Shown: positions 1 to 18,000 of the stretch, piece by piece
How positions within the stretch are numbered: position 1 is the stretch's first letter
Layout of the letters: every line of letters begins with the position of its first letter
From: a bacterium
Lineage (GTDB): Bacteria; UBA4055
NCBI GenBank assembly: GCA_029559475.1
Contig: JAKQBN010000036.1
Location: forward strand, 1-36,618
Length of the DNA: 36,618 bases
Direction of reading: 5' to 3'
Translations under genes and position numbers: made by a program
The notes under the pieces: model-generated
Databases searched by the model: none
Told to the model about the DNA's origin: nothing
What the model saw: only the letters and a program-made list of their open reading frames with translations

Positions 1-168
1 TTATTTTAAGAGATATAACAGTGAAAAAGGGCATATGTCACTTGATTATAGAACTCCTGATGAAGTATATTACGGGATGATTGAAATAGGAAAAGAAAAA
101 GTTTTCGCTTAGAAGGATGTTAACACATACTTCTAAAAAAAGCTGTATTAAGAATGGGAGCCATTACA
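1..168 (+). mobile_element. Right end of an IS3-family insertion sequence
   Basis: The window opens inside an insertion sequence. Bases 2-112 encode the tail of an IS3-type transposase, followed by about 56 non-coding bases that end ...CCATTACA at 168. Read inward, the terminus is TGTAATGGCTCCCATTCT, a plausible inverted repeat beginning TGT, as expected for this family. Beyond 168 the HerA-like gene runs in frame, and inside 168 its frame becomes nonsense and soon stops, so the element has inserted into that gene. The left end, target duplication and rest of the element lie outside the window. The exact boundary (168 or a base or two either side) is inferred from the reading-frame break and the terminal CA. 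Confidence 0.75.
2..112 (+). CDS. IS3-family transposase OrfB, C-terminal 36 residues (cut by window edge)
   Basis: The frame starting at base 2 encodes 36 residues up to TAG at 110-112. It contains the signature tail of IS3/IS150 integrase-type transposases: YFKRYNSEKGHMSLDYRTP then DEVYY. This matches the family pattern 'YN..R.H..L.Y.TP.e.y' that follows the catalytic glutamate of the DDE core. The rest of the gene is upstream of the window. It catalyses copy-out/paste-in transposition of its own element. The family assignment is strong; the subgroup cannot be told from so short a piece. Confidence 0.85.
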   Translation, partial: YFKRYNSEKGHMSLDYRTPDEVYYGMIEIGKEKVFA

Positions 169-942
169 ATTTTTTTCTTTTATAGTAGTCTCAATTAAAC
201 TTTGAATTATCAATTTAACTACATTACTTTTACCCAATCTTGTTTTGCCAAACATAGCAGTTCTTGTACCCTTAAAATCGTTAGTAGAAAGAAATATGTC
301 TACATTAGGTAGAGGTTTATTTGGCAAAGGTAATCTGCATTCTGTAAGGCGCAATTTACCTATTTGAAATCGGTTATCTTCGGGTACCATAATATTATCT
401 ACAAGATCAAGTAATTTTTCATCAGGTGAATAGATTAAATATTTGTGAGCACTTAAATAATTATTCAAGTCACCCGAAAATTCTACTGTATTCATTTTTT
501 TAGGGTCAGGATAAAACATACCCAAAACGCTAGTTTTTAAAGCGCCCCATTGCAACTCACTTTGAGTAAACACGTCTAGCTCAGGCATTGATTTTTTTTG
601 TAATTCAAAATAGGTATGTTGCACATCAGAAGACAAGGGCGTCGGAGCACTATCTAATACTCTTAATAATGTGAAATGCGGAGGGATATTTTCACCATTT
701 GATTTGAATGTAGAAGGCACCATTATAAGCAATGAATTCCTTGGGATTCCACCTACAGCTACTTTGAATGGATCGCAGGTTATTATAGTTATTTCACCAT
801 AACCTATTTCGAGTACATATCCAACAAATCTTTGTTTGTCATATTCCTTTGCTTTTTCATAAGATATTTCTTTGTCGAGAAAATCTTTTAAAACCCTTAA
901 AGGATGATTCTGATTAGCTGCATCTTCAAGAAATTTTTTCAT
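148..942 (-). pseudogene. HerA-like DUF87 ATPase, truncated by IS insertion
   Basis: The 264-codon frame starts at ATG 942 with an AGGAA ribosome site. Residues about 35-100 look like the beta-rich HAS-barrel found at the N terminus of HerA translocases, and residues 232-239 (GKTRLGKS) are a full Walker A. The family usually has 500-600 residues, with Walker B, arginine finger and sensor motifs downstream. Here the frame reaches only residue 258 before entering the IS; the last six residues (CNGSHS) are read from IS DNA. The product cannot be an active ATPase. It is the last visible gene of the minus-strand operon with the methyltransferase and type IIG enzyme (9-nt gap), so the intact form was probably a motor subunit of the defence locus. 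Further operon genes, such as a nuclease, may lie beyond the IS. HerA assignment is by motif and fold pattern only. Confidence 0.7.
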
Positions 943-951
943 AGTTTATTC

Positions 952-1752
952 CTATATGTTTGTAATTATAACTTCCTGTGATTCCTTTGTATGAATTCCG
1001 ATTTTTTTTCCTGTGCCTTTCATAAGTTTTTTGATTTTAAATCCTTTATACAATTTACAGATATCAGTATGATTAGAATTTGTCATGACCCATCTGATTT
1101 TATGTAATTTACTGATCTGTTTAATTCTTTTAGAAAGCCTAACCTGATCATCGTAAGTAAACCTGCTATATGCATAGTGAGATTCAATTAACTCTTTCTC
1201 GCCAGGCTTATATGGCGGATCAAAAAATATAAAATCCCCATCTTTTACATTGTCTAGAATTTTATTAAAATCAGCTACATGGAATTTTGCGTTCTTTAGT
1301 ATTCTTGACAATTCAACTAAATCACTATGAGTTACTACCCATCTTCTTTCTTCACCACCATAGCCTACACTAAAATTGCCGTTTGGACTGTGTCTCCACA
1401 TTCCTTTAAAACAAGTTCTATTAAGATATAATGTGCGCGCGGCTCTATAGGTAATTGGCTTATTTAAGTATTCTGAATCTCTAATTAAATAATAAGCTTC
1501 TTTACCTTCAGGAAAGGAAGAAAATATTTCCCAAACTTTATGAGGACAATTTCGTATTCCTTTATATAAGTCAATTAATTCTTTATTCATATCTGATAGA
1601 ATTGATTTTGATGGCTGTATATATAAAAAAACTGATCCACCTCCTAAAAAAGGTTCAATATAATTGCCTTTAATGTATTTACTGTTTGGCAAATAATCGT
1701 CTAAGTAATCAATAAGTTTTGATTTACCACCAGGATATCTTAAAAAACGCAT
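952..1752 (-). CDS. Dam-like DNA adenine (N6) methyltransferase
   Basis: This 266-residue protein has the layout of class alpha (Dam/DpnM) adenine methyltransferases, which transfer methyl from S-adenosylmethionine to adenine N6. It shows RYPGGK near the N terminus (residues 6-11), the AdoMet-binding motif PFLGGGS at 34-40, and catalytic DPPY at 178-181, followed by YSRFTYDDQ typical of the family. The length is normal for Dam. Its start overlaps the stop of the type IIG gene by one base (TAATG), pointing to translational coupling and a joint role in protecting host DNA or adding a second specificity. The gene is AT-rich like the 3' part of the IIG gene. The recognition site cannot be read from the sequence. 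Confidence 0.9.
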   Translation of the reverse strand: MRFLRYPGGKSKLIDYLDDYLPNSKYIKGNYIEPFLGGGSVFLYIQPSKSILSDMNKELIDLYKGIRNCPHKVWEIFSSFPEGKEAYYLIRDSEYLNKPITYRAARTLYLNRTCFKGMWRHSPNGNFSVGYGGEERRWVVTHSDLVELSRILKNAKFHVADFNKILDNVKDGDFIFFDPPYKPGEKELIESHYAYSRFTYDDQVRLSKRIKQISKLHKIRWVMTNSNHTDICKLYKGFKIKKLMKGTGKKIGIHTKESQEVIITNI

Positions 1753-4700
1753 TAAATCCTCCCAACTATTTCTATATCCTCGTCTGTCAGCTCGTAAAGC
1801 TGATAGACGAGTTTATCAACTTCTACTTCGGATTCTGATACATCAATATAAGCATCAGTGTTTCTTTTTTCAAGAATCTCTCTGACTAATTTAGCTATTT
1901 CGTGTTTTTCTTTTTCTTTACCCTTAACAACAGGAATCTGCTCTAAATACTGCCTGATAAAGCGCAAATAACCGCCTCTTATCGAAGGTGTAATGCTTTT
2001 ATAAAAAAAGTGTATGAGCTTTGAGTTTAATAATCCGAGTAAATACATATCATCTGTAGGTATGATATAAGCTGTATTTGCGCATACAGCTCCGCAGCTA
2101 TCATACATACATTCAGCTTTGAGTGCAATATCAGGTAGCATTATCTTTTCTTTATAAAATTGTTCATAATAGTCACAGGCTCTAAGCTCCCACCAATATT
2201 CCCCTTTGTCATATCTCGCTTTAGCCTTGTCTTTGAACTGTTCCAGATGATCCATGATTTGAGGAAATTCATTTCTCATTTTTTTGATAGCTGTTTCTTC
2301 ATCTATCGTGCCAAATCGGTTACTTGTAAATCCGTTCCTGAATAGAATCAGATAATTTGTCAAAGAAGGTTTCGAATATCTTTTTATATCTCTACCTGAT
2401 AAAAACGGTTTTAATATTTCTTTATATTTAGGCTGTTTTTCGATCATACTCATAGCAAATTCTTTAGGAATAATAAAAGCTTCGTTAAGTCCGGTTTTTA
2501 TCCCGTAATATATACCTTTTTTAACAGTGGTCCCAAGAGGAATACTTATCTTGTTTAATTTATTGATGATTCTCTGCGTATCAATATCAGCAAAGTTCCA
2601 CCCATTCTCATTTAGAGTTGATTTTGTTATTACAATTGAATTCTCTTTCTCATACTCTTCAATTCCGTTAGGAAAATCAAGCGAGTCGAATGTAGTAGCA
2701 AGGAAATCTTTTAATGAGTATTCTTTTTGTATTTGCAGTATGCTCGGATATGTTGTAGCCTCTTCAAAAACCGGTAAATCGCCAAAATCAAGAAATCTGA
2801 TTATTTTATGCTTCTTTACAAATTCCCTGATATTCTTTCCATAAGTTGCTTTCAGCCACTTATTAGGCATAATAAATATAAATATTCCGTTATCTTTAAG
2901 TATTGTAAAACCACGCTCGATAAAATACACATATATATCTGCGGTACTTTTAAATGTTGTGTATCGTGAGGCTAAATAATCTTTGATCGGTTTTAATTCT
3001 TCCTGCCTGATATACGGCGGATTGCCGATGACTACATCGAAGCCGGTGTAGTTGCCTTTTTCGTCCAAAACTTCGGGGAATTCGAACCTCCATTCGAATG
3101 CGTTGCGGTAGATGGCGCTTTCCTTTATTTCTTTGATCTCTGCGCTGAGCCTGTTTATTTGTTCTTCAAGGTTTTTTCTTTCTTTCTGCTCTTTTGCTTT
3201 TTCTTTTTCGCTTAATTCGATGTCTAAAAGCTTTCCTGTTGAGTATTTTTCATAGAGTTCGTTTTCGAGGCTGTCGAGCCTTTTTTGTTTGGGGTCGTTT
3301 ACGCTTATTTCTGATCTGAAGTTGTTCTTGATTTCATTTATGAGTTTTTCGAGCTGTCTTTTTTCATCCTTGGTCTTTGCGTTCTGATACGACTGTACCG
3401 CGAGCCTGTAGGATGTGATTGTCCATTTGCTTTTTCTGAGGGCTGAGGAGAGGTCTGCGTCGAGGCTGAATCTGCTTACGAGGGAGTTCCCGCATTTGAT
3501 GTTTATGTCTATGTTGGGCAGGGTTTCGAGCTGTTTGTAGTCCGATCCTTTTGTGTAGTATGCGTTCTTTAAGAGTTCGATCCAGAGCCTGAGCCTGCAT
3601 ATTTTTACGGAATTGTGGTTGATGTCCACGCCGAACAGGCAGTTCTCGATTATGGTCTGCTTTTCATGGAAGAGTAATTCCTGTACTTTCTGGCTTTCCC
3701 TGCTGCCGGGTATGTATTCGAAAGGGTCTTCTGCCGCTTTGTTGTAGAGCATGAGTTCGTCGTTCTCAACAAATGCCGAATATCCGCTGAGGATGTTGCC
3801 TTCCGCGTCCGAGAGTATTCCGAGCTCTGATTTTACTGCAATGATCTCGTTTAAGGCCGATACGAGAAAGTGGCCCGAGCCTACGGCGGGATCGCATATT
3901 TTAAGCGAGTTTATGACCGAATTGTACTCTTTTACTTCCTCTTTTTTATAAGGCGAACCGATGAAGTTCTTTAATTCGCCTATGTCTTTTATGTCTTTTT
4001 TATATCTGTCGTTGAACTTCTGAATGACCGCTCTTCTGACCGTTTCCCTGCACATGTACATCGTGATAAATCCGGGCGTGAAGAAGGAGCCGTCTTTGTA
4101 GCCGTTGATCTTCTCGAATATCAGCCCGAGCACCGATGCGTTTATGAGCGTTTTTCTCTCTTCCTGGATCTCCTCCGAGCCTTCCGAGCTGAAGTCGTAA
4201 GCGTCGAGAAATCCGAAAAGGTATTCTATTGTGTTCATCGCGCCGGCCGTTTTCCTGCCGTCCTTATCCCTGAGCACCGTTTTTGAATATGTGGGAAGTT
4301 CGATCCCGTTGTCGAGGTTGGATATTACAATAAGGTCGTCTTCGAGCCCGGATCTTTCGAAAAGCGAGCTGTTCAGGTAGGGGACTTTTGAGAACTTTTT
4401 CCTTACGGATTCCGCGCGGTCTTCATGCCTGATGGCAAGCACCTGAAAGAACAGCTTGTTCAGTTCGTCGAAATTACTGATGTTCTCGTATGTCAGGAAT
4501 TTGTAATCCCTGTCGCCTTTAAAGTATTTTAACAGCTGAGCCTCGAGAAGCTTGAGGAAAAGTATCCTGTTTATCCAGGTTATGCATAATTCAAGAGCCA
4601 CGCCGAAATACTGTTCGTCCTTACTGCTTCCGAACGATTCGGGGTTGGTGACCTTGTACAGCCTGTCTTCGGACCTTAGAATGTTTATTGCGTTCTCGAG

Positions 4701-5549
4701 CAGAGAGCCCGCATCGGGTTTTTCTTTCCTCCGGATGATCTTTTTTCCGCCGTCTTTGACCTCCTCAAGCCCGATAATGTGCAGAAGCTCAAAGTAAAAA
4801 TTCTTGTCGAGGCTGTTGCTGTCGTTGGGGAATCCGAGATTTAAAAGATGCGCCGGCGAAAGAACTTTGTACAGCAGGATAAGATTTTTGTCGTCCGTTC
4901 TGTCTGAATTACGCAGGAACTTTTCATAGTCTTTGATATTGAAATAAGTATATGCGAGATCGCTTTTAGCTTCATCGATGTACTTTGCCGCGATGTCCTT
5001 ATAGAACATATCGGTGGAAGAGCTGTCCTTTCTGCCCGAATTCCACAGTCCGTATTCTTTCACAAGAGCTTTATTATCGTAAAAACTCTTATAAAAACCC
5101 GCGCTGTCGAAAATGAACCATTCGTATCCGTTCGTAGCAATAAGGCTCTTTATGTCCGCATTCGAATTATCGATCCTCTCCCTCAGATAATAAAGCACAA
5201 GCTCTCGGACAGCTTTTACATTCAGATTGTCATGCTTCGGAAAATCGTATTTCTCCGATGGCCTTTTCGCCTCGATAATCACGCACACCGGGGATGTCGA
5301 GGTCTTATCGGAATGGATGACCAGATCGTTCCTGTTCTTAACGTTGATCTCGTATAGACCCTTATAATAAGTTTCACGTAGAAAGTCGCGCACAAGGTTC
5401 TTCGCGTGCTCTTCACCTTCCTTTTCGTCAATATCTGAAAGAAGAGCGATCAGATTAGATTTGAACCTTTCGATCTCGTCCCTGGTCGGTTTAAGCTTTC
5501 TGTATGCCTGTTTTAATGCCTGCTTCGGGGTTTTATACTGAACTGACAC
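1752..5549 (-). CDS. Type IIG (Eco57I-like) restriction-modification enzyme
   Basis: A 1265-residue single-chain nuclease-methyltransferase. N-terminal residues 70-95 hold a PD-(D/E)xK nuclease core: D75, then E93-A-K95. A helical connector follows, then the N6-adenine methyltransferase domain with motif I DPAVGSGHF at 553-561 and motif IV NPPY at 843-846. The remaining ~400 residues match TaqI-C-like target-recognition regions. Such enzymes methylate one strand and cut at a distance from the site. A coiled-coil insertion (about 730-820) between motif I and NPPY is charge-rich. The gene follows an AraC-like gene by 51 bp and couples to the Dam-like gene. Composition changes inside it: 28 of 60 bases are G/C at 4321-4380 but 20 of 60 at 2521-2580. 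All key motifs are present, so I expect an active enzyme. Confidence 0.9.
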   Translation of the reverse strand: MSVQYKTPKQALKQAYRKLKPTRDEIERFKSNLIALLSDIDEKEGEEHAKNLVRDFLRETYYKGLYEINVKNRNDLVIHSDKTSTSPVCVIIEAKRPSEKYDFPKHDNLNVKAVRELVLYYLRERIDNSNADIKSLIATNGYEWFIFDSAGFYKSFYDNKALVKEYGLWNSGRKDSSSTDMFYKDIAAKYIDEAKSDLAYTYFNIKDYEKFLRNSDRTDDKNLILLYKVLSPAHLLNLGFPNDSNSLDKNFYFELLHIIGLEEVKDGGKKIIRRKEKPDAGSLLENAINILRSEDRLYKVTNPESFGSSKDEQYFGVALELCITWINRILFLKLLEAQLLKYFKGDRDYKFLTYENISNFDELNKLFFQVLAIRHEDRAESVRKKFSKVPYLNSSLFERSGLEDDLIVISNLDNGIELPTYSKTVLRDKDGRKTAGAMNTIEYLFGFLDAYDFSSEGSEEIQEERKTLINASVLGLIFEKINGYKDGSFFTPGFITMYMCRETVRRAVIQKFNDRYKKDIKDIGELKNFIGSPYKKEEVKEYNSVINSLKICDPAVGSGHFLVSALNEIIAVKSELGILSDAEGNILSGYSAFVENDELMLYNKAAEDPFEYIPGSRESQKVQELLFHEKQTIIENCLFGVDINHNSVKICRLRLWIELLKNAYYTKGSDYKQLETLPNIDINIKCGNSLVSRFSLDADLSSALRKSKWTITSYRLAVQSYQNAKTKDEKRQLEKLINEIKNNFRSEISVNDPKQKRLDSLENELYEKYSTGKLLDIELSEKEKAKEQKERKNLEEQINRLSAEIKEIKESAIYRNAFEWRFEFPEVLDEKGNYTGFDVVIGNPPYIRQEELKPIKDYLASRYTTFKSTADIYVYFIERGFTILKDNGIFIFIMPNKWLKATYGKNIREFVKKHKIIRFLDFGDLPVFEEATTYPSILQIQKEYSLKDFLATTFDSLDFPNGIEEYEKENSIVITKSTLNENGWNFADIDTQRIINKLNKISIPLGTTVKKGIYYGIKTGLNEAFIIPKEFAMSMIEKQPKYKEILKPFLSGRDIKRYSKPSLTNYLILFRNGFTSNRFGTIDEETAIKKMRNEFPQIMDHLEQFKDKAKARYDKGEYWWELRACDYYEQFYKEKIMLPDIALKAECMYDSCGAVCANTAYIIPTDDMYLLGLLNSKLIHFFYKSITPSIRGGYLRFIRQYLEQIPVVKGKEKEKHEIAKLVREILEKRNTDAYIDVSESEVEVDKLVYQLYELTDEDIEIVGRI

Positions 5550-6077: not shown

Positions 6078-6860
6078 CTATTTATCCTTCTTTTTAAAAG
6101 TATACTGCATAAAATTGACCATATGATCAGATGATTTATCAAAAAACTGAGAACGCAAAGATCCGAAAATTATTCCTGAATACGTATATGTAAACTGCAG
6201 GCTTGTTCTGCCGTCGTCATTCGAGTTAAACAAATTCTCATATCCTAGAGTGACTTGTAATTTATCTGTAATAAAATATGATGATAACCCGACATTGTAG
6301 GAACTGTCATCAAATTCAAAATCATTAAAGTTTAATGCTGAAATTATGAAAATATTTTTTGAAACAAGCGGTTTATAAGAAAATCCTGTATCTAAACAGA
6401 TCGGTTCTGAATTATTATTCAAACTATGGCTGAAATTTGAACTTATAGTCAGTTTAGTATTTGGCTTATAAGTAAGTGAAAATTGCTCTTTTAAAATATT
6501 ATTTTCATTGTACCATCTATTTGAATACCCTATAAAGAAATTATTATACAATTCATAACCATACGATGCAGAAAAAATGTTCAGCGTATCAAAATCCGTA
6601 TGATAGAAGAATCCAAAATTATAAATTGTGAAGAATACCCCTCCTTCCCGTATTTTTTCTTCTGATGAATTTTCCTTTGTAAAAATGTAAGGCATTATTG
6701 AAATTGACGGCTGATAATCTAAAAGTGAAGGATTTATTATTGTCTTGTAGGCTAAACTATCGCATGTAACCGAAGATTTATAGTCGAATACATCTTGCGG
6801 GAAACTACTTATGACAAATAAAAAAAATGCTATCAGAAAAAAAATAGATTTTGAATTCAT
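6078..6860 (-). CDS. Probable outer-membrane beta-barrel protein, unknown function
   Basis: I do not recognise a named family. The 260-residue product begins with a clear signal peptide (hydrophobic residues 5-20, cleavage near SFPQD). The rest is built of short alternating polar/aromatic strands separated by N/D/S-rich turns (for example FFIGYSNRWYNEN, LQVTLGYENLF, LQFTYTYSGIIFG), the pattern of a small outer-membrane barrel. It resembles PorP/SprF-like barrel proteins in style only. A strong ribosome site AGGAGG precedes ATG 6860. The gene is AT-rich and follows the lipoprotein gene on the same strand, with a long perfect hairpin between them, so the two may be expressed together at different levels. 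Confidence 0.6.
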   Translation of the reverse strand: MNSKSIFFLIAFFLFVISSFPQDVFDYKSSVTCDSLAYKTIINPSLLDYQPSISIMPYIFTKENSSEEKIREGGVFFTIYNFGFFYHTDFDTLNIFSASYGYELYNNFFIGYSNRWYNENNILKEQFSLTYKPNTKLTISSNFSHSLNNNSEPICLDTGFSYKPLVSKNIFIISALNFNDFEFDDSSYNVGLSSYFITDKLQVTLGYENLFNSNDDGRTSLQFTYTYSGIIFGSLRSQFFDKSSDHMVNFMQYTFKKKDK

Positions 6861-6882
6861 TTCACCCTCCTGTTTAATCAGA

Positions 6883-6911
6883 AGATGATGCGTTACTTGT
6901 ACGCATCATCT
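6883..6911 (-). terminator. Perfect 11-bp hairpin between lipoprotein and barrel genes
   Basis: AGATGATGCGT and ACGCATCATCT form an 11-bp perfect stem around a 7-base loop. On the minus strand it stands 15 nt after the lipoprotein stop and 22 nt before the next ATG. The bases after it on that strand (TCTGATT) are not a good U-tract, so it may be a weak terminator, an attenuator or an mRNA-stabilising/processing hairpin. On the plus strand it is followed by TTCTTTT, but no plus-strand gene reads into it. Confidence 0.5.
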
Positions 6912-6925
6912 TTCTTTTGAGTTCG

Positions 6926-7768
6926 TTATCTGCTATTTACGCTATCTTTTTTATCGATGTATGTTAAAGCTGAAGCAGCAAGAGCAGCACCGCCTATCGC
7001 ATATGGATCAGTATTTCCTGATACTAAAACAGATAAACCACCTATTAAATCACCCAAAAATATATCTCCCCAAAATGAAAAGCATAGTGATTGGTCATCG
7101 ATCTCAACATTAAAAAGAATATTCCAGTTTTCTAGATTATCTTTCCAGTATTTTGCTGAAGATAAACCTACATCAATTATATTCATAAAAGTAATAAGTT
7201 CTTCACCTGTAAGTTCTTTTCTTGCCTTATTTCTTATATCCATTAGAGAAGAAACCACTGTACCATAATTCTTTTTATCAATATTAATAATTTCCATTGA
7301 GTATTGTTTGACAGCTGGATTCAAACCTGAACTATTAATAGCTTCTGTTAAATCTTGAACAGAAATGTTTAAAGATGATTGCCCTGCCTCAAACATACTT
7401 TGTATCTCGCCGGAGTTAATTTGCCCGTTAGTCTCATCTATGAAGTAGTTTGTCAAAAGAATCTTGGATTGCTCTTCTAATTCTTCGTTTGTACCCCACC
7501 AGTTGTTTTTTGTTAGTTTTGTGCCGTTGTAACTGTTTTTCAGGTCTTCTAGACCTCCATAGAGATATTTCAGCCCATTGTTATGAAATTCACCCGAAAA
7601 AGATTCTTCAGAGCCAACCGATTTTGCTCCAGAATAGATGCTTTTTTGCTGAGCGTCATTGTTACTGACACTCGTATCTGCAGATGCTAAAGTGTTTGTT
7701 CTTTCGCATCCAACGAATAGAATTACAGCCAATACTGTTGTAACCAGAATGTACCCGACTTTCTTCAT
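6926..7768 (-). CDS. Putative lipoprotein, unknown function
   Basis: A 280-residue protein with a lipoprotein signal: positive start MKKVGY, hydrophobic stretch to residue 19, and Cys21 after FVG. A Ser/Asn/Asp-rich linker follows (about 22-60), then a mostly helical body. Near the C terminus a glycine/alanine-rich hydrophobic segment (GGLSVLVSG ... IGGAALAASALTYI, about 240-270) could be a membrane or packing helix. GAGGAAAC upstream supports ATG 7768. It sits between the small secreted-peptide gene and the barrel gene, all on the minus strand and all predicted to be exported, suggesting an envelope-associated group. No family is recognised. Confidence 0.6.
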   Translation of the reverse strand: MKKVGYILVTTVLAVILFVGCERTNTLASADTSVSNNDAQQKSIYSGAKSVGSEESFSGEFHNNGLKYLYGGLEDLKNSYNGTKLTKNNWWGTNEELEEQSKILLTNYFIDETNGQINSGEIQSMFEAGQSSLNISVQDLTEAINSSGLNPAVKQYSMEIINIDKKNYGTVVSSLMDIRNKARKELTGEELITFMNIIDVGLSSAKYWKDNLENWNILFNVEIDDQSLCFSFWGDIFLGDLIGGLSVLVSGNTDPYAIGGAALAASALTYIDKKDSVNSR

Positions 7769-7815: not shown

Positions 7816-7983
7816 TTACTTTTTTACAGGTGGAATTGGTTGTGGATCATTTGGGTCTCCATCAATGCATACCCATCCTGTCCCAATCCAAACCCATCCG
7901 GGATAATCAGGATCCTCTGCTTTCATTTCTTGAGAAAGAAGCAATGTCAACACTGTGATTGAAATTAGCAGCCATCTTTTCAT
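7816..7983 (-). CDS. Small secreted peptide precursor (55 residues)
   Basis: A short frame running from ATG (7981-7983) to TAA (7816-7818). It has a near-ideal ribosome site, GGAGAG five bases before ATG. The first ~22 residues form a signal peptide (MKRWLLISITVLTLLL, cleavage probably after KA). The mature ~33-residue peptide is striking: acidic, rich in Trp, Gly and Pro, with a single Cys (DYPGWVWIGTGW, then VCIDGD) and ending in a proline-rich basic tail, PQPIPPVKK. It begins 107 bp downstream of the HTH-TPR gene and 47 bp upstream of the lipoprotein gene, same strand. Unlike shadow frames it has start, ribosome site, signal and tail in register. I know no family for it; a signalling or surface-bound peptide is a hypothesis. 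Confidence 0.6.
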   Translation of the reverse strand: MKRWLLISITVLTLLLSQEMKAEDPDYPGWVWIGTGWVCIDGDPNDPQPIPPVKK

Positions 7984-8090
7984 AGAACTCTCCATGTTAT
8001 TTGGCTGTTAATTTTAATCAATTATTTAAAAAAGAAAACGTGCCGCGTTATTTTAACACTTATTTTATGGTAATATTTTACTTGTTAGCT

Positions 8091-10250
8091 TTATTTACAC
8101 ATTTCTGTGATGCATAGTTTGTTTCGTACAAAATCAACATCTTCCGATATATCTGTTTTATTCGTTAATGAAAATTCAGTAAAATATTTTAAAGCTTTCT
8201 TATAATATTTATTTGCTATTCTAATCTTGGATCTGTTTTCATAAACAATTCCGAGAGCTTTACAAATATATCCTGCTATGTGGAATTGTTTAAGCCTAAG
8301 CGCTTTTCTAAATATAATTTTTGATACTGGCATTATTTTTTTTAAGTTAGATTTTTCTACATATATTTTAAGAATACTATAGTTCGCTAGTAGCGTGTAC
8401 AGACTATTATTTGACTTTATAGATTCGAGTAAAAGGATTTTCATTGTTTTAACTGCTTTGTCAAAATCACGATTCTCGAAATATGCTCTTCCTAAATAGA
8501 ATAAATTCGAGATATAAAGTAGTTTATGCGAAAAAATTTTGTTTCCTTTTGCAGAGAAGTTAAGCAGTTTTGCAGCTAATGCATATTTATTTTTCTTATA
8601 ATAAAAAATACCCATTCGATATTCCGCATCAAATTGCATATGCTTTAACCCTGCTTTCTCAGAATATATTTTTAATTTTGCAAGATACTCATCGATTTCG
8701 TTATCGTTAACTGCTACACCCATTGTAAAAGTTGAAATAATACCTAATAAATTATCGCATACATCAAATATATTTTTGTTCGCGATATTATAATCTATAG
8801 ATGTTTTATAGTATGTTAACGATTTTTTATAATTACCTTCAGCATAGAAAATTAATCCTCTTTGCGTTAAACTATTCCCGATTAGCTCGGTTAATCCACA
8901 ATTTTGTGCATATTTTATGTAATTTTTTGATGCTAATCGTGCTTTATTAAACATTTTCGTTATAAGATACAGTTTTGTGTATGATCTGTATAACAGGCAC
9001 TTCTCTAACATTCCGTTCTCATTACTTAAATATTTAATAGAGCGTTTAAAATATTTAACAGCTCCTTTTCGGTTATTATAGATGTTATATATCATACCTA
9101 GATTATAGTAAACTGCTCCTAAACCCTTACTACTTTCTATTTTTTTGTATAATTCGGCACAATCTTTTAGAAGCATTAATGAGGATTGATACTCTTCCTC
9201 ATTATATAACAGTTCAGCTCTTCGTAACAGCAGCTCGGCTTGTAAATTATTTTCTTTTATGCCTGAATATATAAGAGCTGAATATGCATTATTGTATTCA
9301 GTTTCAGCTTTTTGAAAATTGTAATCCATACAAGAGCTGTCACCGTCTCGTTTGATTTCATCGAGAACTTTCTTCAGCGTTAACTGGGTAGATGATGGAA
9401 AAATATGCGTATCAGCTTCATTTGCGGTTGTACAATCGTATTTATCAATGTTTACTAATGGAACAATCAAAGCATTTTTATAATCTGAGTTTAGATTTTT
9501 ATTAAGTATTATTTCCTTGTACTTATAATATATAACTTTTTCAGTTAGATCGGATTTTTTCAGACCGATATCTGTAAATGTGTCTTTAGGTTTCTTAATC
9601 TGACCTTTTATTAATGTGATGTTTTTATATTTATTCTGTACAATCACCTTAAATTCCGAAGGATTGATGTAAGATATCTTTGTTAATATTTTTATTGTTT
9701 TATCGTTTATCTTTTGAGATTTTAAAGCTAAGAGAATAAAAAGACACAAATTTCTTGAGTTTCTGGTTTGCGTAAAACCGCAAAATATGATCTTACCCTT
9801 AGAATTATGCATTGAAATCTGATATAAAGATTTTATTTCATCTCTAAATTTAGTATGATACACTGTTCGTAGAGTTAGTAAGTAGGTGTTTTTATCAATA
9901 TCGTGATTATTTAATCCATTACCTTTTTGTTTTAAGTGCCTCCATATTAAAGTAAGGCTGCAATCAAGAGTGAAATTTGCTTTAATATCTGAAAGAGTTG
10001 CATCAGGATTAGCATTTTTGTATTCCAGTATTTTTTTTAGAAGGTTTCTATCTATCTTTTTCTTTTGTGAATCTTTTCTTTTTGTTATTAGTCCTTCCTT
10101 TCCGTCTATCTTGAATTTCTTATACCACCTGCCGACAGTTGCTTCATTCAAACCGTAGATTATCGCAGCGCTCCTGATATTTTCTTTTCCGGCTATTTCG
10201 CACACTTCAGCCTTGAACTCGGGTGGATATTTCAGCTGTTTGACTGCCAA
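8091..10250 (-). CDS. Transposase-type HTH protein fused to TPR repeats
   Basis: The 719-residue frame has three parts. Residues 1-110 are two helix-turn-helix units of the kind heading IS3/IS481/IS630 transposases (PPEFKAEVCEIA, then NEATVGRWYKKF, then a second unit ending LIWRHLKQKG). Residues about 120-285 look by eye like a dead integrase core: YLLTLRTVY where transposases have 'YLTDI', and INPSEF where they have 'TDNGSEF', so the catalytic aspartates are gone. Residues about 315-700 are TPR repeats. The likely start is TTG at 10250, four bases after the upstream CHAT-protein stop and without a clear ribosome site, suggesting translational coupling. The 5' end has host-like composition and the rest is AT-rich (18 of 60 G/C at 8101-8160). 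Likely a DNA-binding regulator with a TPR sensor; target unknown. Confidence 0.7.
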   Translation of the reverse strand: MAVKQLKYPPEFKAEVCEIAGKENIRSAAIIYGLNEATVGRWYKKFKIDGKEGLITKRKDSQKKKIDRNLLKKILEYKNANPDATLSDIKANFTLDCSLTLIWRHLKQKGNGLNNHDIDKNTYLLTLRTVYHTKFRDEIKSLYQISMHNSKGKIIFCGFTQTRNSRNLCLFILLALKSQKINDKTIKILTKISYINPSEFKVIVQNKYKNITLIKGQIKKPKDTFTDIGLKKSDLTEKVIYYKYKEIILNKNLNSDYKNALIVPLVNIDKYDCTTANEADTHIFPSSTQLTLKKVLDEIKRDGDSSCMDYNFQKAETEYNNAYSALIYSGIKENNLQAELLLRRAELLYNEEEYQSSLMLLKDCAELYKKIESSKGLGAVYYNLGMIYNIYNNRKGAVKYFKRSIKYLSNENGMLEKCLLYRSYTKLYLITKMFNKARLASKNYIKYAQNCGLTELIGNSLTQRGLIFYAEGNYKKSLTYYKTSIDYNIANKNIFDVCDNLLGIISTFTMGVAVNDNEIDEYLAKLKIYSEKAGLKHMQFDAEYRMGIFYYKKNKYALAAKLLNFSAKGNKIFSHKLLYISNLFYLGRAYFENRDFDKAVKTMKILLLESIKSNNSLYTLLANYSILKIYVEKSNLKKIMPVSKIIFRKALRLKQFHIAGYICKALGIVYENRSKIRIANKYYKKALKYFTEFSLTNKTDISEDVDFVRNKLCITEMCK

Positions 10251-10254
10251 TTTT

Positions 10255-13200
10255 TTATCTGTTTATCTTGAAATTAGCCCAGTAGTACGGGTGGGTATTG
10301 AAATAGTTTCTGATGTCGCGTTTGGCTTTGGAAAGAGCACTTATCTTGTCATCTCCCGCAGCGGAATATCTGAAATATCTTTTCATAAGAACTGAAGCTG
10401 CAAGATCGTCCGTTCTCCATTTGCTGGAGATCACCGTGCCTGCGCCTGAAAGTCTGAACGCACTTGAGAGATCGAAATTCTCAAAATATGCGCTTCCTGT
10501 TCTTCCGCCTGTGTCGCATCCCGAAAGGATTATTTCTTTGTTCTTTACATCAAGGCCGATAATCTCGCCCCATTCGAGTTTTCCGTCATTGGATTCGTCT
10601 GCTGACAGCTGGATATAGCTCGATCTGCCGGATGTTCTTACGGAATCTTTATTTAGTATGAAGCTGTGGACGGGAAGGTGTAGCATCCCATACTGTTTTG
10701 CGCCTTCGTTCTTTAAAAGCGTTTCGGTGGCTTTCTGGCCGCTGGTGACGGTCGAGTTCTTATTGCTTCGCGACAGAGCTGAATATTCCCTTTCCGCATA
10801 AACAAGTTCGCTTTCGGCAGTGAAGGGATTAACGAATGACAGGCTTTTGCTTACTGCTGCTCCGTTTACTTTAGGATCGATGACCGGGAGTTCTGCAGCT
10901 TCCGAGATGTTGAATTTGTCGATAAGATAATTCTGACCGTCTGACAGCACTTCGAACGGATAGTTCTTCATATCACCGTCAGAGTAGATGATAAGATCAT
11001 TTATGCCTTCAAGATATGCCGCAGCATCTTTTGTAAATACTGTCTGATACGATTTTACCGCATCGGAAATGAAATCACCTTTTGATTCTATCTTTTCCGG
11101 CAGGCCTTTCAGCTCTTTAGTTACCGGGAATGAAAATAATTTATGATCATCGGCTTTAACGGCAATTAGATATGAATTCTGACCGTTGGGTAAAAATATA
11201 AGCATTGCATTATTTGCGGCGAGTTTCTTCTTTATGCTCTCAAGTGTACCTGTTGCAGGCTTATCGGACGTCTGACTTCTTATGCCGAAATACTTGAGAT
11301 CGTTCCGTGCGAAAAGGTAATCGCGTTCCCTGACAATATCCAGCGCGTCATCTGTCCTTGAGCTTTTCAAAAGAAGGTCGATACGTCTTGAATATGCGGG
11401 CCGGATGATGTTCTCCTGCTCCTCTGAGAACTGATTTTCATTCTCTGCAGATAATTTTTCGGCTTTTACGCACAACTGCTCTAGAATTTCAATAGCTTTG
11501 GCAGACTGATCCTTTTCGTAAAGTCCCGACAGCAGATAGGACGATTCGAGATATATGTCGGAAAAACCGTAAAGCTCTGCGTTCTCGGTGCTTTTTTTCA
11601 GATAATACCCGCAGCTGTCGGGATTATTCAGTCCGAGAAAAGCGCTTCCCGTTCCCAGAAGTGCCTTCGACCGGAAGAATTCATCGCCGGATGATACTGC
11701 GAGGCCGAGGCTGTTTTTGTAATGGAAAAGAGCGCTGTCCGGTTTTTTCAGATTTTTTAAGTATAATTCACCTTTATAGAACTCTGCTGAGATCATGGCT
11801 TTAACGTTCTTTGTTTCCAGGGCGAGCAGCATGCTTAATTCAAGATTTTTTTCAGCTCCTGCAATGTCGTCCGAGAGGATGAGTATTTTCGCAAGGTTCA
11901 CTCTTGCCGTGCTTTCTTCGGACCTGTCGTTCAGCCCTATCGTTTTTTCGAGGGTCTTGTATGAATATGTCCTTGCCGCTCCAAGATCGTCCATCTTTAC
12001 TTCGACAAGGCTGCGCGTGTTGTAGATCCTCATCAGTTCGGCATCGGATACTGCCTCTTTTTCTGCCATGCCCAGATATTTAAGCGCTAATGAAAGTTTG
12101 TCGGTATAATAATACAGATCGCTCAGATTGATATAAACCGAAACTCTTTCCGGCCCTTCCTTAAAATACTCGAGAGCTTCTATGTAAAGCTCTTCGGCTT
12201 TGGAATACAGCGATTTTTTAAAATAGCAAAGCCCGGCAGATTCTGTAAGTTCACCGAAAGAAGCTCCGTCAACATCCTCGAACTCATCGAGATTTTTAAT
12301 GATAGTGTCATACACGAACAGAGCTGAATCGGTCTCGCCGTTCTTATAATAACTGACCATAATGTTCCTGAGCGAATTGAACAGGATCTCCGTCGAGCTT
12401 TCGTTAAGCCCGGTTTTGATCGATGTTATTTCAGGCTCGGACAGCAGCCCTGAACTTACAAGATATTCCTTTTTATAGCTGATGCTTTTTTTAAGATCGC
12501 CTTTGTAAGAATAGATCACCGAAAGCATATTATAAGCCGAGACTCTGTCTTTCAGCGTGCTTTTTTCATCCGAAAGTATCTTTTCCTGCCAGATGATGCT
12601 CTCATCATACTGCTTATTCAGAATGTAATTTCTGGAAATTTCATCGTAAGCTGAAAGCCTTTCCTTATCTGGACCGTTCTTCTCCGTATAATCTATGAGT
12701 TGCTGTGAATATATCACCGCACGCTTGTGATCTTTGATGTTCCGCAGCGATGAGACAAGTGTTTTTAAAATGTTCAGTTCCTGCTTGTCCCCGATGTTCC
12801 TTGCCATAGCCAGCGCCTGAATAAAATATACAGCGGCTTTTTCATAGACTTTACTGTTGTAATACCTGACCCCGTTCATCAGAGAGCTTTTGAGATTAGC
12901 CTCCGCGAATTCCTTCTGACCCTGCCTGTTCATCCCTGTCAGGCCGATTAGCGTATATGAAACGTTTGAATCTTTCAATACAGTCAGAATATCCTGCTCA
13001 GAAGCTTTTTCATATAGCTTTGCGCTCAATAACGTATCTTTTTTATTTTCATTCTGAATTATGACCGACTGGGCTCCCGAGAAGATCAGGCTGTTCGCTG
13101 TTATCAGCTTGTCTTCAGGCCTGACAGCACCTTCAAAACCGTTTATCACGACCGCGTACGCAGGCATTTTGAACTTAAGAAAATCGCCGAGCCTGACCTC

Positions 13201-16200
13201 GTTCGAACCGAAAACGAACACGTTCTCAAGAGAATTTGAAGGATCTGTCTTAATAGGTTCATCTATGTTTATGATCCCGCCGTTCTCGAAATATGCCGGA
13301 AGGTCTTTTTCCGCGATATCTGTTTTTGAACTGATCTTATGCTCGGAATAGTTGATGTTCGCGTTCTCAACGGCCATCATCAAAGACGACAGAGAAGGAA
13401 GTATCGAAACTCCCGTATCCGTATATCCTTTTTCCCGCATAACTGAAACGAAATCAGCGTTCACGCTGCCGTTGAAATCAGGCACTATGAAAATGTGTTC
13501 CTTTTCTTTTATATCAGAGTCAAATCCGTCAAATATCCTGCTGAAATCCCCGGCCGGAGATTCCACCGCTTTATATTCCGAGCCGTCAAAGTAGAAATAA
13601 AGTTCCTTCCCGGGCATTGAATATACGCTTATTACCGCCCTGTATTCTCCGAGATCTTCAGCGGTCTTTTCTTCGTTCATATCCTCTATGCTCACGAACT
13701 GCAGCAGCCTTTCGTCATTCGATCTTTTGATCTGATCATAAATATCAGAAAGCTCTTTTTCATAAAAATCCGCTTTTGTTTCATATTCTGCAATCATTGA
13801 TGCGTATTTTTCAGGATTTTTATTCTTTAACAGGTCGGCTTTCTGCCTGTACCTGACTATCTCTTCGTTGTTGTACCTGATCTTTTTTATATGGATCTTA
13901 TGAAGCTGTTCTTTGTAATCTAAATACCTGCTGGAATAATAATTAAGAAGCATCCTGTTCTTATATCTTTCGGCGTAATTCATTGCGGATGAAATATCGT
14001 TCCTGTTCAGACATCCCGCGATCAGCCTGTCGTAAAGAGGTTTTATGTCGTCACGCCATCCCGAGATCAGCTCGTAATCGTCTGTCTGAGGAAGATACTC
14101 AGAAAGCATTTTTTCCGCCCGGATATAGAGATCCTGTTTTCTGTCGGTATCAGCATCAAGATCGCCCTTTTTCATCAGATAGCGCCATTTTAAAAGCTTA
14201 TCGTAGGTAAGTTCCGCAGCTTCATATCCTCTTTCGAAAAACGATCCTGCTCTTTCAGTGTCATCAGCTTCGATACAGATCGTTGCAAGATTGTATAGAA
14301 CTGAGGCTGACAATCTGTTTACTTCCTCGGTTTTTCGTTTGAGCGAGTTTAAAAGAGTATCCGCCTCAATAAAGAATCTTTCCGCGCCTATAAGGTCCCT
14401 TATCGCGGAATATCTGTCCGCAGGCGTACCGGCAGCTTTCTTTTTGTAGGACTCAAAGCTTAAAAGTCCTCTCAAATTCCTGTTCACTGCTCTGTCGTAA
14501 AGCTCGCCGTTCTCTTTTGAACCCGACCATACGGCAGTATCTGCCAGAGCTTTAGCGGTTTCATTATCATGTACCGATGTAAAATCCGAAGCCATTGCTT
14601 TGAGGATGTTGTTCTCGTTCACGAGGGCTATGTTATAAAGTCCGAGTCCGATGCAAAGTTCATTAGATGCTCTGAACCTTTTTATGCTCTCGACACGGTC
14701 GCTGCGGAAATATTCAAGAATCCCCAGCCTGTTCTCGATCAGGCTCAAAGCAAGGTCGTTGCCTTTTTTTCTGAATATTTCCGCTTTCTTATTCAAAAGC
14801 TCTTTTACGGCATTGAATTCCTTGAGGCTGCTGTAGCTTGAAGCTTCGATCGAATACAAAAGCGCGAGTTCGTCTTTGCCTTCGAACCCTTCCGCGTACT
14901 GCGATCCGAGAACGATGTCCAGCTTCCATACGGGAATGTCTATCCCTAATAGAGACATTATGATCATATTATCGTAATTCTTCCTGTCCCTATAATCGTT
15001 CTCTTCCGCTATGATCTGGCCTGTCAGCTCTGATGCGTACTGATACTCTTCATCAACGAACCTCGCGAAAGCGCTGTTCCTTTTTATCAGATCGACGGCT
15101 TTTTTATTATCCTCGCTCTTCAGCTTTATGATTATGTCGGAATATTTCTGATATGCGTCATCACCGCCTATCAGATCACCCTCTTTGTCCTCACGGGTAA
15201 GATAGAGTAGAGCCGTTCTCATAGAGACCCTAAGCTCGCTTTTTCTGTCGTTAAGCTCTTTATAGATCTCCAAAGCTTTTGAATAATATTCGTCGGCCGA
15301 TTCATCGTCTAATGTGAAAAGGCAGTGACCTGTTCTCTCATAAACTATCGCTTCCTGCGCCTTCGAGCTGAATTTATATCCTCCGTCTATTATCTGCCTG
15401 TAAAGATCCAGAGCCTGCTTTCTGGCATATTCACCCATATTATAATAATTGTTGGCCATGTTCAGCTTCATTTTCAGAATAAGTTCCTTATCAGCTTCCG
15501 CATCACATAAAGCTATGCCCTTTCCCAGTACCGAAATGGCCATATCGGTATAATCTTTATCCGTATCTTCGATTATATTTACTGTCCGCAAAAGGAATTT
15601 GACCGGTCCGAAGATAATATCGAGGCTTTTTCTGAGAATGTTCTTTTTCTTTTCGAGCTCAGTTTCTTTCTGTGTTATGTGGTACAGCGCTTCATAGCAG
15701 TAAGCCAGGGTCAGATACGAATATTTAAGACCGCTGTCAATTTCTATCGATCTGCCTATTAGTTCAGCGGCTCTTGTCATATCCGCTTTATCAGCATCCT
15801 TTCCTGAACTACCCCTAACCGAATACGCATATCCTAAAGCGTAATTGTAAAATGCGTTATTCTGATCTTTTGTATATTCTTCAGAAAAAAATGCTACAGC
15901 CTCGTTCATTTTCTTTAGACCGGCGTATGAATCGACCATACCTCTTATGACCTCAGCATTAGTCCTGTTCAGCTCATATGCCTTTGAATACACAAGTAGT
16001 GCATTATCGAACATCTTTTTTTCATAAAACGCCCCGGCTTTCTTAAGATATATGTCCGACAGTCGTTTTGAAGCCAGAGTAGAATACAGGTCGTAATTTA
16101 TACCGCCGTAGTTATCCGTCATGTATTCATAAATGCTTTCGACAGCTTCATCGGGGCCTGTCTGAGTATATATTTCAGCGAGCCTGATGTCTGCCTGAGC

Positions 16201-18000
16201 TGAATATTTTTTTAAAAGAACGTTCTGAGGGTCCGAAACATAGAACTGTTTCACTTCGTTAAAATATCTGATCCTGCTTTCATCGTTCGATATTATCTCG
16301 CCGAGGATCAGACAGGCGTAAGATCTTAGTTCGGGGGAAAACTCTTCATTAAGCTTGATCTCTGTTATCAGTGCCGCTGCATCTTCATTTATGCCTTCAG
16401 TGAACTGTCCGAAATAACCCCGTATATAATTTTCCTTTTCATCGTCAGATGTCGAAAATTCTAGGGCTTTTTCTATCATAATACCGGATGACTGGCTGTT
16501 ACCCGATCTTGATGCTGATGCTGCCATGAGATAATAACTTTCCGCGTTCTCGCTTTTGTCTTTCTTATATCTTGCTTTTACGAACCTGCTGTTGGCTTCG
16601 GGATATCTTCCGAGATCGTAATATATCCCTCCTATCCTGAGCTGGATCAGATTTTGTACGTCAGCATCATTATATTTTTCAGCCATTGTGTTCAGATACC
16701 TTAAATGATCGTCGAGTTCGTATCCGAATTCTTTCGTCGATATCTCTCTTCTTGATAATTCGGCGGTCACTCTTTTTAATTCTGCGGTACCGGAAATAAG
16801 TTCGTTCGCCTGGAATCTGTTCTGCACGATCCTGTATATCGATTCCGCCATTCTGAATTTTTTCTGGATGGAATAGATCTCCGCGATCCTGAAATACGCA
16901 TCTGCTCTTGCTGCGTCAGGCTGACTCGGGATCGATACCGCCCGGTAATATGATAAAAGCGCATTCGACAGAAGTTCTTCCGTTTCGGCCGATACATTTT
17001 CGTTCATCGCATCAGCCAGTAGTACCTGCGCCTTATAATTCTCAAAAAGATAGTCGGCGAGTTTTTTCTGCTCGGAAGGATCGTTTGTATAAGGAGCTAC
17101 ACCGTCCGGCCCGCAGTACCAGATATCCGGATTACCCTTCCTGTCGGACACGAAAAATATCCTTCCGTCCGGAGCTATCTTCGGCTCTGTCGACGAATAC
17201 GATTCAGATGTAAGCTGAAAGGCATCCGAATATCCTTCATCGCTGCCCTTGATCCTGTACAAAATTGAATTGTCGGTGATATCGGTTCTTCCGTCTCCGT
17301 TCGTGTCTGTAGTTACAGCCGAATAAACGATCGTCTTTTCATCCTTCGAAACATCGAATCCCGTAATGATCTTCTGCCCGAAAGTGATCTGCATCGGTTC
17401 TGATATTCCGCTGCTGTCGTCCGCGGTCATATAGGAAATAAAAAGATTGCTGAATCCCGAAGCGTCCGGATACGACTGATACATAAGGTCGTTCTTACCC
17501 AGAATGTAAGCCCTTTCGCCTATACCGTCCCTGACCTGCTTCGGTTTTTTCCGTTTTTTAAGATCGAAACTCTTCAGGTAATATCCGTCTTTCTTTTTTT
17601 CCGAAAAATAGATCATTCGTCCGCTCAGGCACGGATGGTATTCTTCACCTATGGCTGAGAACAAAAGCTCCTGTTCTCCTGATTCTTTCAGATAATAGAG
17701 ATTTCCGAAAACGTCAGTTTCGTCCGATCTCATTATTATCCTGCCGTCGTAAAGAACGGGATATTCGTTGTTCGGAAGTGAAGTGATCTGAGTTTCCACT
17801 TCTTTTTCAAGGTCTTTTTTGTAAATGTTGAAACTGCCTGACCTGTCAGACGCGAAAAAAATGATGTTACCGTCTTTTATAACAATGTTCGATTCTTCTG
17901 ATGATGAGGTTGTTATCTGGACAGGCTCATACTTCCTGATGTCATACGCGCCATTTAATGCCGTAAGCGCCAGCAGAAGTATTAACAGCATTTTATCCAT
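10255..18000 (-). CDS. Giant exported TolB-propeller/TPR protein with two CHAT-like domains
   Basis: A 2581-residue protein. Residues 1-18 are a signal peptide; about 25-305 form a TolB/PD40-like propeller with repeated 'FFASDRSGSFNIY'-type blades and an EF-hand-like calcium loop at 232-243 (DTNGDGRTDITD). TPR repeats fill most of 315-1350, a coiled coil lies at about 1360-1430, a CHAT-like domain without catalytic residues at about 1455-1700, and more TPRs to about 2230. The C-terminal CHAT domain (about 2235-2581) has His2445 (LHLPVHS) and Cys2495 (LSGCDTGG) and ends HPYYWANFKINR, all typical. CHAT domains are caspase-like cysteine proteases. Export would place the protease in the periplasm or outside. 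It starts 9 nt after valS and is coupled to the HTH-TPR gene. The substrate is unknown. Confidence 0.85.
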   Translation of the reverse strand: MDKMLLILLLALTALNGAYDIRKYEPVQITTSSSEESNIVIKDGNIIFFASDRSGSFNIYKKDLEKEVETQITSLPNNEYPVLYDGRIIMRSDETDVFGNLYYLKESGEQELLFSAIGEEYHPCLSGRMIYFSEKKKDGYYLKSFDLKKRKKPKQVRDGIGERAYILGKNDLMYQSYPDASGFSNLFISYMTADDSSGISEPMQITFGQKIITGFDVSKDEKTIVYSAVTTDTNGDGRTDITDNSILYRIKGSDEGYSDAFQLTSESYSSTEPKIAPDGRIFFVSDRKGNPDIWYCGPDGVAPYTNDPSEQKKLADYLFENYKAQVLLADAMNENVSAETEELLSNALLSYYRAVSIPSQPDAARADAYFRIAEIYSIQKKFRMAESIYRIVQNRFQANELISGTAELKRVTAELSRREISTKEFGYELDDHLRYLNTMAEKYNDADVQNLIQLRIGGIYYDLGRYPEANSRFVKARYKKDKSENAESYYLMAASASRSGNSQSSGIMIEKALEFSTSDDEKENYIRGYFGQFTEGINEDAAALITEIKLNEEFSPELRSYACLILGEIISNDESRIRYFNEVKQFYVSDPQNVLLKKYSAQADIRLAEIYTQTGPDEAVESIYEYMTDNYGGINYDLYSTLASKRLSDIYLKKAGAFYEKKMFDNALLVYSKAYELNRTNAEVIRGMVDSYAGLKKMNEAVAFFSEEYTKDQNNAFYNYALGYAYSVRGSSGKDADKADMTRAAELIGRSIEIDSGLKYSYLTLAYCYEALYHITQKETELEKKKNILRKSLDIIFGPVKFLLRTVNIIEDTDKDYTDMAISVLGKGIALCDAEADKELILKMKLNMANNYYNMGEYARKQALDLYRQIIDGGYKFSSKAQEAIVYERTGHCLFTLDDESADEYYSKALEIYKELNDRKSELRVSMRTALLYLTREDKEGDLIGGDDAYQKYSDIIIKLKSEDNKKAVDLIKRNSAFARFVDEEYQYASELTGQIIAEENDYRDRKNYDNMIIMSLLGIDIPVWKLDIVLGSQYAEGFEGKDELALLYSIEASSYSSLKEFNAVKELLNKKAEIFRKKGNDLALSLIENRLGILEYFRSDRVESIKRFRASNELCIGLGLYNIALVNENNILKAMASDFTSVHDNETAKALADTAVWSGSKENGELYDRAVNRNLRGLLSFESYKKKAAGTPADRYSAIRDLIGAERFFIEADTLLNSLKRKTEEVNRLSASVLYNLATICIEADDTERAGSFFERGYEAAELTYDKLLKWRYLMKKGDLDADTDRKQDLYIRAEKMLSEYLPQTDDYELISGWRDDIKPLYDRLIAGCLNRNDISSAMNYAERYKNRMLLNYYSSRYLDYKEQLHKIHIKKIRYNNEEIVRYRQKADLLKNKNPEKYASMIAEYETKADFYEKELSDIYDQIKRSNDERLLQFVSIEDMNEEKTAEDLGEYRAVISVYSMPGKELYFYFDGSEYKAVESPAGDFSRIFDGFDSDIKEKEHIFIVPDFNGSVNADFVSVMREKGYTDTGVSILPSLSSLMMAVENANINYSEHKISSKTDIAEKDLPAYFENGGIINIDEPIKTDPSNSLENVFVFGSNEVRLGDFLKFKMPAYAVVINGFEGAVRPEDKLITANSLIFSGAQSVIIQNENKKDTLLSAKLYEKASEQDILTVLKDSNVSYTLIGLTGMNRQGQKEFAEANLKSSLMNGVRYYNSKVYEKAAVYFIQALAMARNIGDKQELNILKTLVSSLRNIKDHKRAVIYSQQLIDYTEKNGPDKERLSAYDEISRNYILNKQYDESIIWQEKILSDEKSTLKDRVSAYNMLSVIYSYKGDLKKSISYKKEYLVSSGLLSEPEITSIKTGLNESSTEILFNSLRNIMVSYYKNGETDSALFVYDTIIKNLDEFEDVDGASFGELTESAGLCYFKKSLYSKAEELYIEALEYFKEGPERVSVYINLSDLYYYTDKLSLALKYLGMAEKEAVSDAELMRIYNTRSLVEVKMDDLGAARTYSYKTLEKTIGLNDRSEESTARVNLAKILILSDDIAGAEKNLELSMLLALETKNVKAMISAEFYKGELYLKNLKKPDSALFHYKNSLGLAVSSGDEFFRSKALLGTGSAFLGLNNPDSCGYYLKKSTENAELYGFSDIYLESSYLLSGLYEKDQSAKAIEILEQLCVKAEKLSAENENQFSEEQENIIRPAYSRRIDLLLKSSRTDDALDIVRERDYLFARNDLKYFGIRSQTSDKPATGTLESIKKKLAANNAMLIFLPNGQNSYLIAVKADDHKLFSFPVTKELKGLPEKIESKGDFISDAVKSYQTVFTKDAAAYLEGINDLIIYSDGDMKNYPFEVLSDGQNYLIDKFNISEAAELPVIDPKVNGAAVSKSLSFVNPFTAESELVYAEREYSALSRSNKNSTVTSGQKATETLLKNEGAKQYGMLHLPVHSFILNKDSVRTSGRSSYIQLSADESNDGKLEWGEIIGLDVKNKEIILSGCDTGGRTGSAYFENFDLSSAFRLSGAGTVISSKWRTDDLAASVLMKRYFRYSAAGDDKISALSKAKRDIRNYFNTHPYYWANFKINR

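Follow-up and report, generated by a model that had tools for sequence, protein, structure and literature searches.

Sequence comparison points to a mobile gene pair encoding an HTH-TPR protein and a small exported peptide with a predicted tryptophan hairpin

Two minus-strand genes as a candidate regulatory module

Within the window (the whole 36,618-nucleotide stretch analysed, contig C52 of a genome of 83 contigs and 2.28 Mb), a gene for an HTH-TPR protein and a gene for a small exported peptide directly 3' of it appear to form a mobile, paralogous and conserved module, often present in several copies per genome in this family of uncultivated Gram-negative bacteria. The two genes are almost certainly a functional pair, and the best explanation of the data as a whole, held with middling confidence, is a mobile two-gene regulatory module in which the TPR protein controls and recognises the peptide. 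A first-pass annotation had described three adjoining minus-strand genes (CHAT, HTH-TPR and peptide), all of which were confirmed in place; judged from sequence, the unit nonetheless comprises two genes (HTH-TPR and peptide), not three. The features of the locus are as follows:

7816..7983, minus strand: exported peptide gene, 55 aa (GGAG ribosome site, family of 17, dN/dS)
7819..7860, minus strand: proline-rich tail ending PPVKK, residues 42-55 (family alignment)
7864..7899, minus strand: predicted tryptophan hairpin GWVWIGTGWVCI, residues 29-40 (family alignment and AF2 strands)
7918..7983, minus strand: signal peptide, residues 1-22, predicted to be cut after KA (family alignment, by eye)
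7984..8090, minus strand: region between the two genes; a weakly conserved element ~55-70 bp 5' of the peptide start is a candidate promoter/operator (motif score)
8091..10250, minus strand: HTH-TPR protein, 719 aa, TTG start (homologue directly upstream of each testable peptide copy)
8097..9395, minus strand: TPR superhelix of ~13 TPR-like helix pairs, residues 286-718 (Pfam TPR_12, AF2 pLDDT ~90, structural comparison)
9504..9887, minus strand: middle domain, residues 122-249, with the strand/helix order of an RNase H / DDE integrase core in the AF2 secondary structure; candidate homology
9921..10223, minus strand: N-terminal HTH region of transposase type, residues 10-110 (HTH_28 E 2.3e-6, IS481/IS630 HTH matches; helices in model)
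10255..18000, minus strand: CHAT protein, 2581 aa, a neighbour of the module and not a specific part of it

The peptide family and its selection

The peptide gene starts at 7983 behind a GGAG ribosome site, and its product is MKRWLLISITVLTLLLSQEMKA-EDPDYPGWVWIGTGWVCIDGDPNDPQPIPPVKK; an alternative 59-aa ORF from 7995 is without a ribosome site. A paralogue of the 59-aa ORF was identified in the same genome (contig C60, 50% identity), directly 3' of a paralogue of the TPR gene. When a profile built from 17 sequences was run on the 13 genomes of the family, it recovered exactly 17 copies with E-values of 1e-15 or better, distributed over 10 of the 13 genomes, and the next match stood at E 0.008. 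The earlier claim of a 55-residue secreted-peptide precursor was thereby borne out, for the reading from the ATG behind GGAG. This distribution, together with a TPR homologue located 5' in all 15 testable copies and the signs of purifying selection given below, places the peptide gene far beyond chance.

A wider survey of 386 genomes yielded no convincing further copy outside the family, and no peptide-like gene was evident in viral contigs scanned with the motif pattern TGGNNNTGGNNNGGNNNNNNNTGGNTNTAYNNNGG, where the longest-ORF matches resemble repeat-rich proteins. The W-x-W-N-G motif also occurs in long viral proteins rich in repeats, and so does not by itself identify the family.

The peptide genes of loci L040 and L042 differ by 10 synonymous and 4 non-synonymous changes, corresponding to a dN/dS of 0.10 in this one small comparison; their mature parts differ by 5 synonymous changes and 1 non-synonymous change, and the tails of the neighbouring TPR genes give a dN/dS of 0.11. 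A ratio near 1 would have counted against the peptide, and the value of about 0.1 instead suggests that it is under purifying selection, neutrality being unlikely, though the numbers are small. The family thus appears to be a conserved small-protein gene without an entry in the searched Pfam and NCBIfam libraries, and would be a small-protein family new to these libraries even if the peptide were an effector only.

Pairing of the peptide with the TPR gene

A TPR homologue lies directly upstream of the peptide, on the same strand, in 15 of 15 testable copies, that is, those with enough upstream sequence; for the other two of the 17, the contig ends ~200 bp away. Peptide and TPR gene are separated by 28-222 bp, while the remaining neighbours vary between loci. 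Conversely, six TPR homologues with downstream sequence possess no intact peptide (C44, L079, L083, L085, L088 and L089), including one in which the peptide has decayed to its proline tail, in a region holding two N (L083), and one in which it has been deleted (L085). No peptide was detected with the distant HTH-middle-TPR proteins of genomes G004 and G006, and none was found in G001, a member of the same genus, where contig ends truncate the close TPR homologues and make the absence a weak one. To the earlier question of whether relatives may lose the peptide and keep its partner, the answer is mixed: some TPR homologues are indeed without it, and no testable peptide is without a TPR gene (0/15). 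The peptide therefore follows the TPR protein, which is the more widespread of the two, and not the other way round.

Distance matrices of peptide and TPR proteins are weakly correlated (r 0.27, p 0.013), which may reflect shared descent. The peptide genes also have a weak upstream element in common (motif score 139; the highest shuffled score was 126). PADLOC returned no defence match, and none of the open-licence papers listed described a system of this kind in FCB bacteria. Separately, Por_Secre_tail domains in neighbouring proteins suggest that the lineage has type IX secretion, in keeping with the FCB group.

The CHAT gene as a local neighbour

The description of the large gene as an exported caspase-like CHAT protein is supported by its CHAT domain at the C-terminus (Pfam E 1.2e-35) and, by eye, a signal peptide. 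The protein also contains PD40 propeller repeats and many TPRs; the H and C motifs (HLPVHS, LSGCDTG) are intact by eye. Its proposed role as the trimming enzyme fared less well, there being no linkage to the module and no trimming site evident in the peptide alignment. Orthologues of CHAT were identified in 13 of 13 family genomes, three of these without a detected peptide, and CHAT adjoins 1 of the 15 testable pairs; as a specific partner it was rejected on these grounds. Of the co-occurrence suggested for the three genes, only the part concerning the TPR/peptide pair (15/15) was retained.

The upstream neighbour of CHAT is valS wherever this is in view (closer relatives), and CHAT is followed by an acetate/butyrate-kinase-type gene (by eye) in G005 and G011. 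An HTH-TPR gene was found 3' of CHAT only in the window, where it opens with TTG 4 bp past the CHAT stop, and in G003, where the copy (L200) begins 8 bp behind CHAT and is cut by the contig end; several other genomes' contigs end at this point. Because CHAT occurs elsewhere without the module, and the module elsewhere without CHAT, the link between them is local. CHAT could conceivably still play a role in trans.

A predicted tryptophan-zipper-like hairpin

Across the 17-copy alignment, the peptides show by eye the signs of a signal peptide, namely a K/R start, a hydrophobic core and an A-x-A-like end. The mature part (~33 aa) is conserved along its whole length, and consists of the hairpin region followed by a proline-rich tail. 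The former is defined by the pattern W-x-W-x4-W-x-Y, in which W30 and W37 are invariant and W32 is found in 16 of 17 copies; the fourth aromatic position is Y in most copies, the Cys of the window copy being unusual. In several copies the turn reads N-G (WMNGVW, WLNGSW, WYNGAW). An AlphaFold2 model of the peptide comprises a signal helix and strands at residues 30-32 and 37-39 (pLDDT ~80), for which Foldseek gave no match.

The designed tryptophan zipper trpzip2, SWTWENGKWTWK, folds into a hairpin that turns at Asn-Gly (PMC2705519). A tryptophan zipper is marked by W-x-W-x4-W-x-W, its aromatic residues pairing across the strands of the hairpin. Designed zippers and the peptide family have the spacing W-x-W-x4-W-x-aromatic in common, as well as N-G at the turn in several natural copies. 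They differ in that the peptide is natural and exported, with a signal peptide before the hairpin and a proline-rich tail after it, and in that its fourth aromatic is usually Tyr. The mature peptide is accordingly modelled, and so predicted, as a tryptophan-zipper-like hairpin; if the TPR protein senses it, it would be a tryptophan-zipper hairpin that is encoded by natural genes and serves a biological role. No report of a bacterial secreted tryptophan zipper was found among open-licence papers.

Domain organization of the HTH-TPR protein

Pfam searches of the HTH-TPR protein identified HTH_28 (E 2.3e-6) and TPR_12 (E 1.4e-14), and its AlphaFold2 model (mean pLDDT 86) resolves an HTH region, a middle domain and ~13 TPR-like helix pairs. 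Matches to HTH_28, HTH_32 or HTH_29 were obtained for 18-21 of 29 TPR-family members and to IS630-type HTH for 7, with no Xre-type model among the matches listed for the 29; the HTH is thus transposase-like and not Xre-like, as first described. The HTH is missing from at least three paired TPR proteins (L010, L040 and L048), and DNA binding is therefore not universal. Complete paired proteins range from 616 to 742 aa, the shortest complete family member having 547 aa.

The middle domain follows the order beta-beta-beta-alpha-beta-alpha-beta-alpha in the model, an arrangement shared with RNase H and DDE integrases. In profile comparisons with rve transposases of the same genomes only the HTH aligns, an rve_2 match is weak and confined to one distant member (L090, E 0.018), and no conserved DDE triad was seen by eye. 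The protein consequently resembles IS-type transposases (IS630/IS481/IS3 HTH) in its N-terminal HTH repeat and in the RNase-H-like order of the middle-domain strands, and departs from them in lacking a recognised catalytic core, in its fusion to a TPR superhelix and in its pairing with a peptide gene. The HTH head is likely a domesticated transposase; the middle domain, with its modelled RNase-H-like order, might be a domesticated transposase core.

Structural comparison of the TPR part gave VIA Z-scores of 28 for LGN, 24 for Rap and 23.8 for NprR. Similarity between TPR folds is common and says nothing on function, as such folds bind many things.

Comparison with RRNPP systems

The pair is reminiscent of RRNPP systems (Rap-Phr, NprR-NprX, PlcR-PapR, Rgg-SHP), with which it has in common an adjacent TPR-fold receptor, with or without an HTH, and a small exported peptide. 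An RRNPP-like quorum-sensing scheme, in which the peptide would leave the cell, be trimmed (perhaps by CHAT), be taken up again and bind to the TPR domain, was accordingly considered. The published signature consists of a gap of -60 to 400 bp, a propeptide of 10-100 aa and a receptor of 250-500 aa, validated receptors having 285-473 aa (PMC10075063). Gap and propeptide lie within these ranges in all 15 testable copies (28-222 bp, 53-59 aa), the TPR fold is similar to Rap and NprR, and the HTH is present in some copies and missing in others, as in NprR and Rap. However, the paired TPR proteins exceed the receptor range, their HTH is of transposase rather than Xre type, an extra middle domain is present, and the mature peptide is conserved throughout, with a predicted fold, instead of ending in a short variable tail. 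The absence of CHAT linkage likewise argues against this scheme.

RRNPP signalling further requires peptide uptake, usually through Opp (PMC10569065). OppA-type SBP_bac_5 proteins were detected in none of the 10 peptide-bearing genomes (drafts), nor in G001; within the family they are confined to G004 (3) and G006 (11), a total of 14 copies in two genomes that both lack the peptide, whereas 11 of 14 control genomes were positive. Draft gaps are an unlikely cause of all ten absences. This split between several copies in G004/G006 and none in peptide bearers may be a matter of phylogeny rather than function. The earlier view of the locus as a hallmark RRNPP layout hence holds for the adjacent TPR protein and exported peptide, and fails for HTH type, receptor length and OppA, while the conservation of the whole mature peptide sits poorly with it. 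By the features tested, this module of a Gram-negative host is not an RRNPP member, and RRNPP-like quorum sensing is improbable.

A possible mode of action

In the regulatory module that we favour, the product of the first gene would act in the cytoplasm and join a DNA-binding head of transposase type, which some copies have lost, to a long TPR superhelix. The second gene would encode a small Sec-exported peptide, in whose mature part of ~33 aa a Trp-zipper-like hairpin is followed by a proline-rich tail. The TPR protein would most likely control the peptide gene, and its superhelix would recognise the peptide; the activity of the regulator might then be set by the peptide made, or by peptide still inside the cell. 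That the TPR protein regulates or recognises the peptide is somewhat more likely than not, and direct recognition is plausible, the nearness of the TPR fold to the peptide-binding proteins LGN, Rap and NprR being counted in its favour. Cell-to-cell signalling by re-import is very improbable; since the usual importer is missing, sensing of the unexported precursor would fit better. More tentatively, the pair may represent a new peptide-regulator system with parts unrelated to RRNPP: a domesticated-transposase TPR regulator and a natural trpzip ligand, in a Gram-negative organism without Opp, with the precursor possibly being sensed.

Among Gram-negative bacteria, the type III secretion chaperone-regulators SycD, IpgC and SicA are TPR proteins tying a secreted partner to transcription. 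The module differs from these in using Sec export and a built-in HTH, and is likened to them by role alone. If the TPR protein does sense its peptide, peptide-TPR regulation would reach beyond Gram-positive bacteria from a different DNA-binding scaffold, and the diversified paralogous pairs would offer a set for studying specificity.

Alternatively, the peptide might be a secreted product (antimicrobial, adhesive or inhibitor), with the TPR protein only controlling its gene in response to another cue. The short distance between the genes and their common upstream element are compatible with such an effector, as are the location of several copies near T9SS-secreted proteins and the strict conservation of the Trp hairpin across paralogues, expected of a folded effector. 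Yet the pairing is fixed in 15/15 cases despite strongly diverged TPR proteins, suggesting specific matching, and the surroundings hold no constant gene for immunity or export. We regard this alternative as somewhat unlikely.

Genomic contexts of module copies

Module copies lie behind unrelated genes, including ABC-F, recG, alcohol dehydrogenase and others (by eye). In five paired loci, an unrelated gene stops at a distance of -4 to +5 bp from the TPR start. In G011 the module is present after an ABC-F gene, and it is absent beside the orthologous ABC-F genes of G000, G001, G002 and G005, two or three of these four module-free loci bearing terminator-like repeats by eye. These placements at unrelated sites, the one 8 bp behind CHAT in G003 and the transposase-type HTH could also indicate a selfish element, with a transposase-derived gene and a peptide hitch-hiking at the ends of host operons. 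Against this, no active transposase domain was recognised and the middle domain shows no DDE triad, and a purely selfish element is highly improbable.

Several other gene families recur near the module. A ~110-aa protein (SCGAVAVFF...) is often found 3' of the peptide or its lost place (L040, L042, L048, L010, L044, L079, L083, L085), and is possibly concanavalin-like from a weak Laminin_G_2/GH16 match in one member. A conserved ~85-aa protein (LEVxPxKLDGDFLVCYD...), WYL-like by eye and with no Pfam match, lies 3' of the peptide in L040, L042, L048, L037 and L038. Secreted peptidase-like proteins are encoded near modules at L010 9403-13266, L036 1-2298, L042 1-1968, L047 1-3555 and L009 5875-9273; one is of C25 gingipain type with a T9SS tail, and the others, caspase/legumain-like by eye, accompany BNR-repeat T9SS proteins. 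LanC-like proteins are located 3' of two peptide copies (L049 2090-3334, Pfam LANC_like E 1.4e-40; L039 4411-5148, E 8.9e-13, fused to HTH_18), which could hint at peptide modification.

In the window itself, the peptide gene is followed by two genes of no recognised family (6078-7768), one for a 280-aa lipoprotein-like protein that has no paralogue elsewhere in the genome, the other for an exported protein of 260 aa. Positions 148-5549 hold a restriction-modification cluster by eye, made up of a HerA-like ATPase fragment, a Dam-like methylase and a 1265-aa methylase-type enzyme. Finally, the module is followed in L039, L044, L045 and L079 by small response regulators that, by eye, belong to one family.
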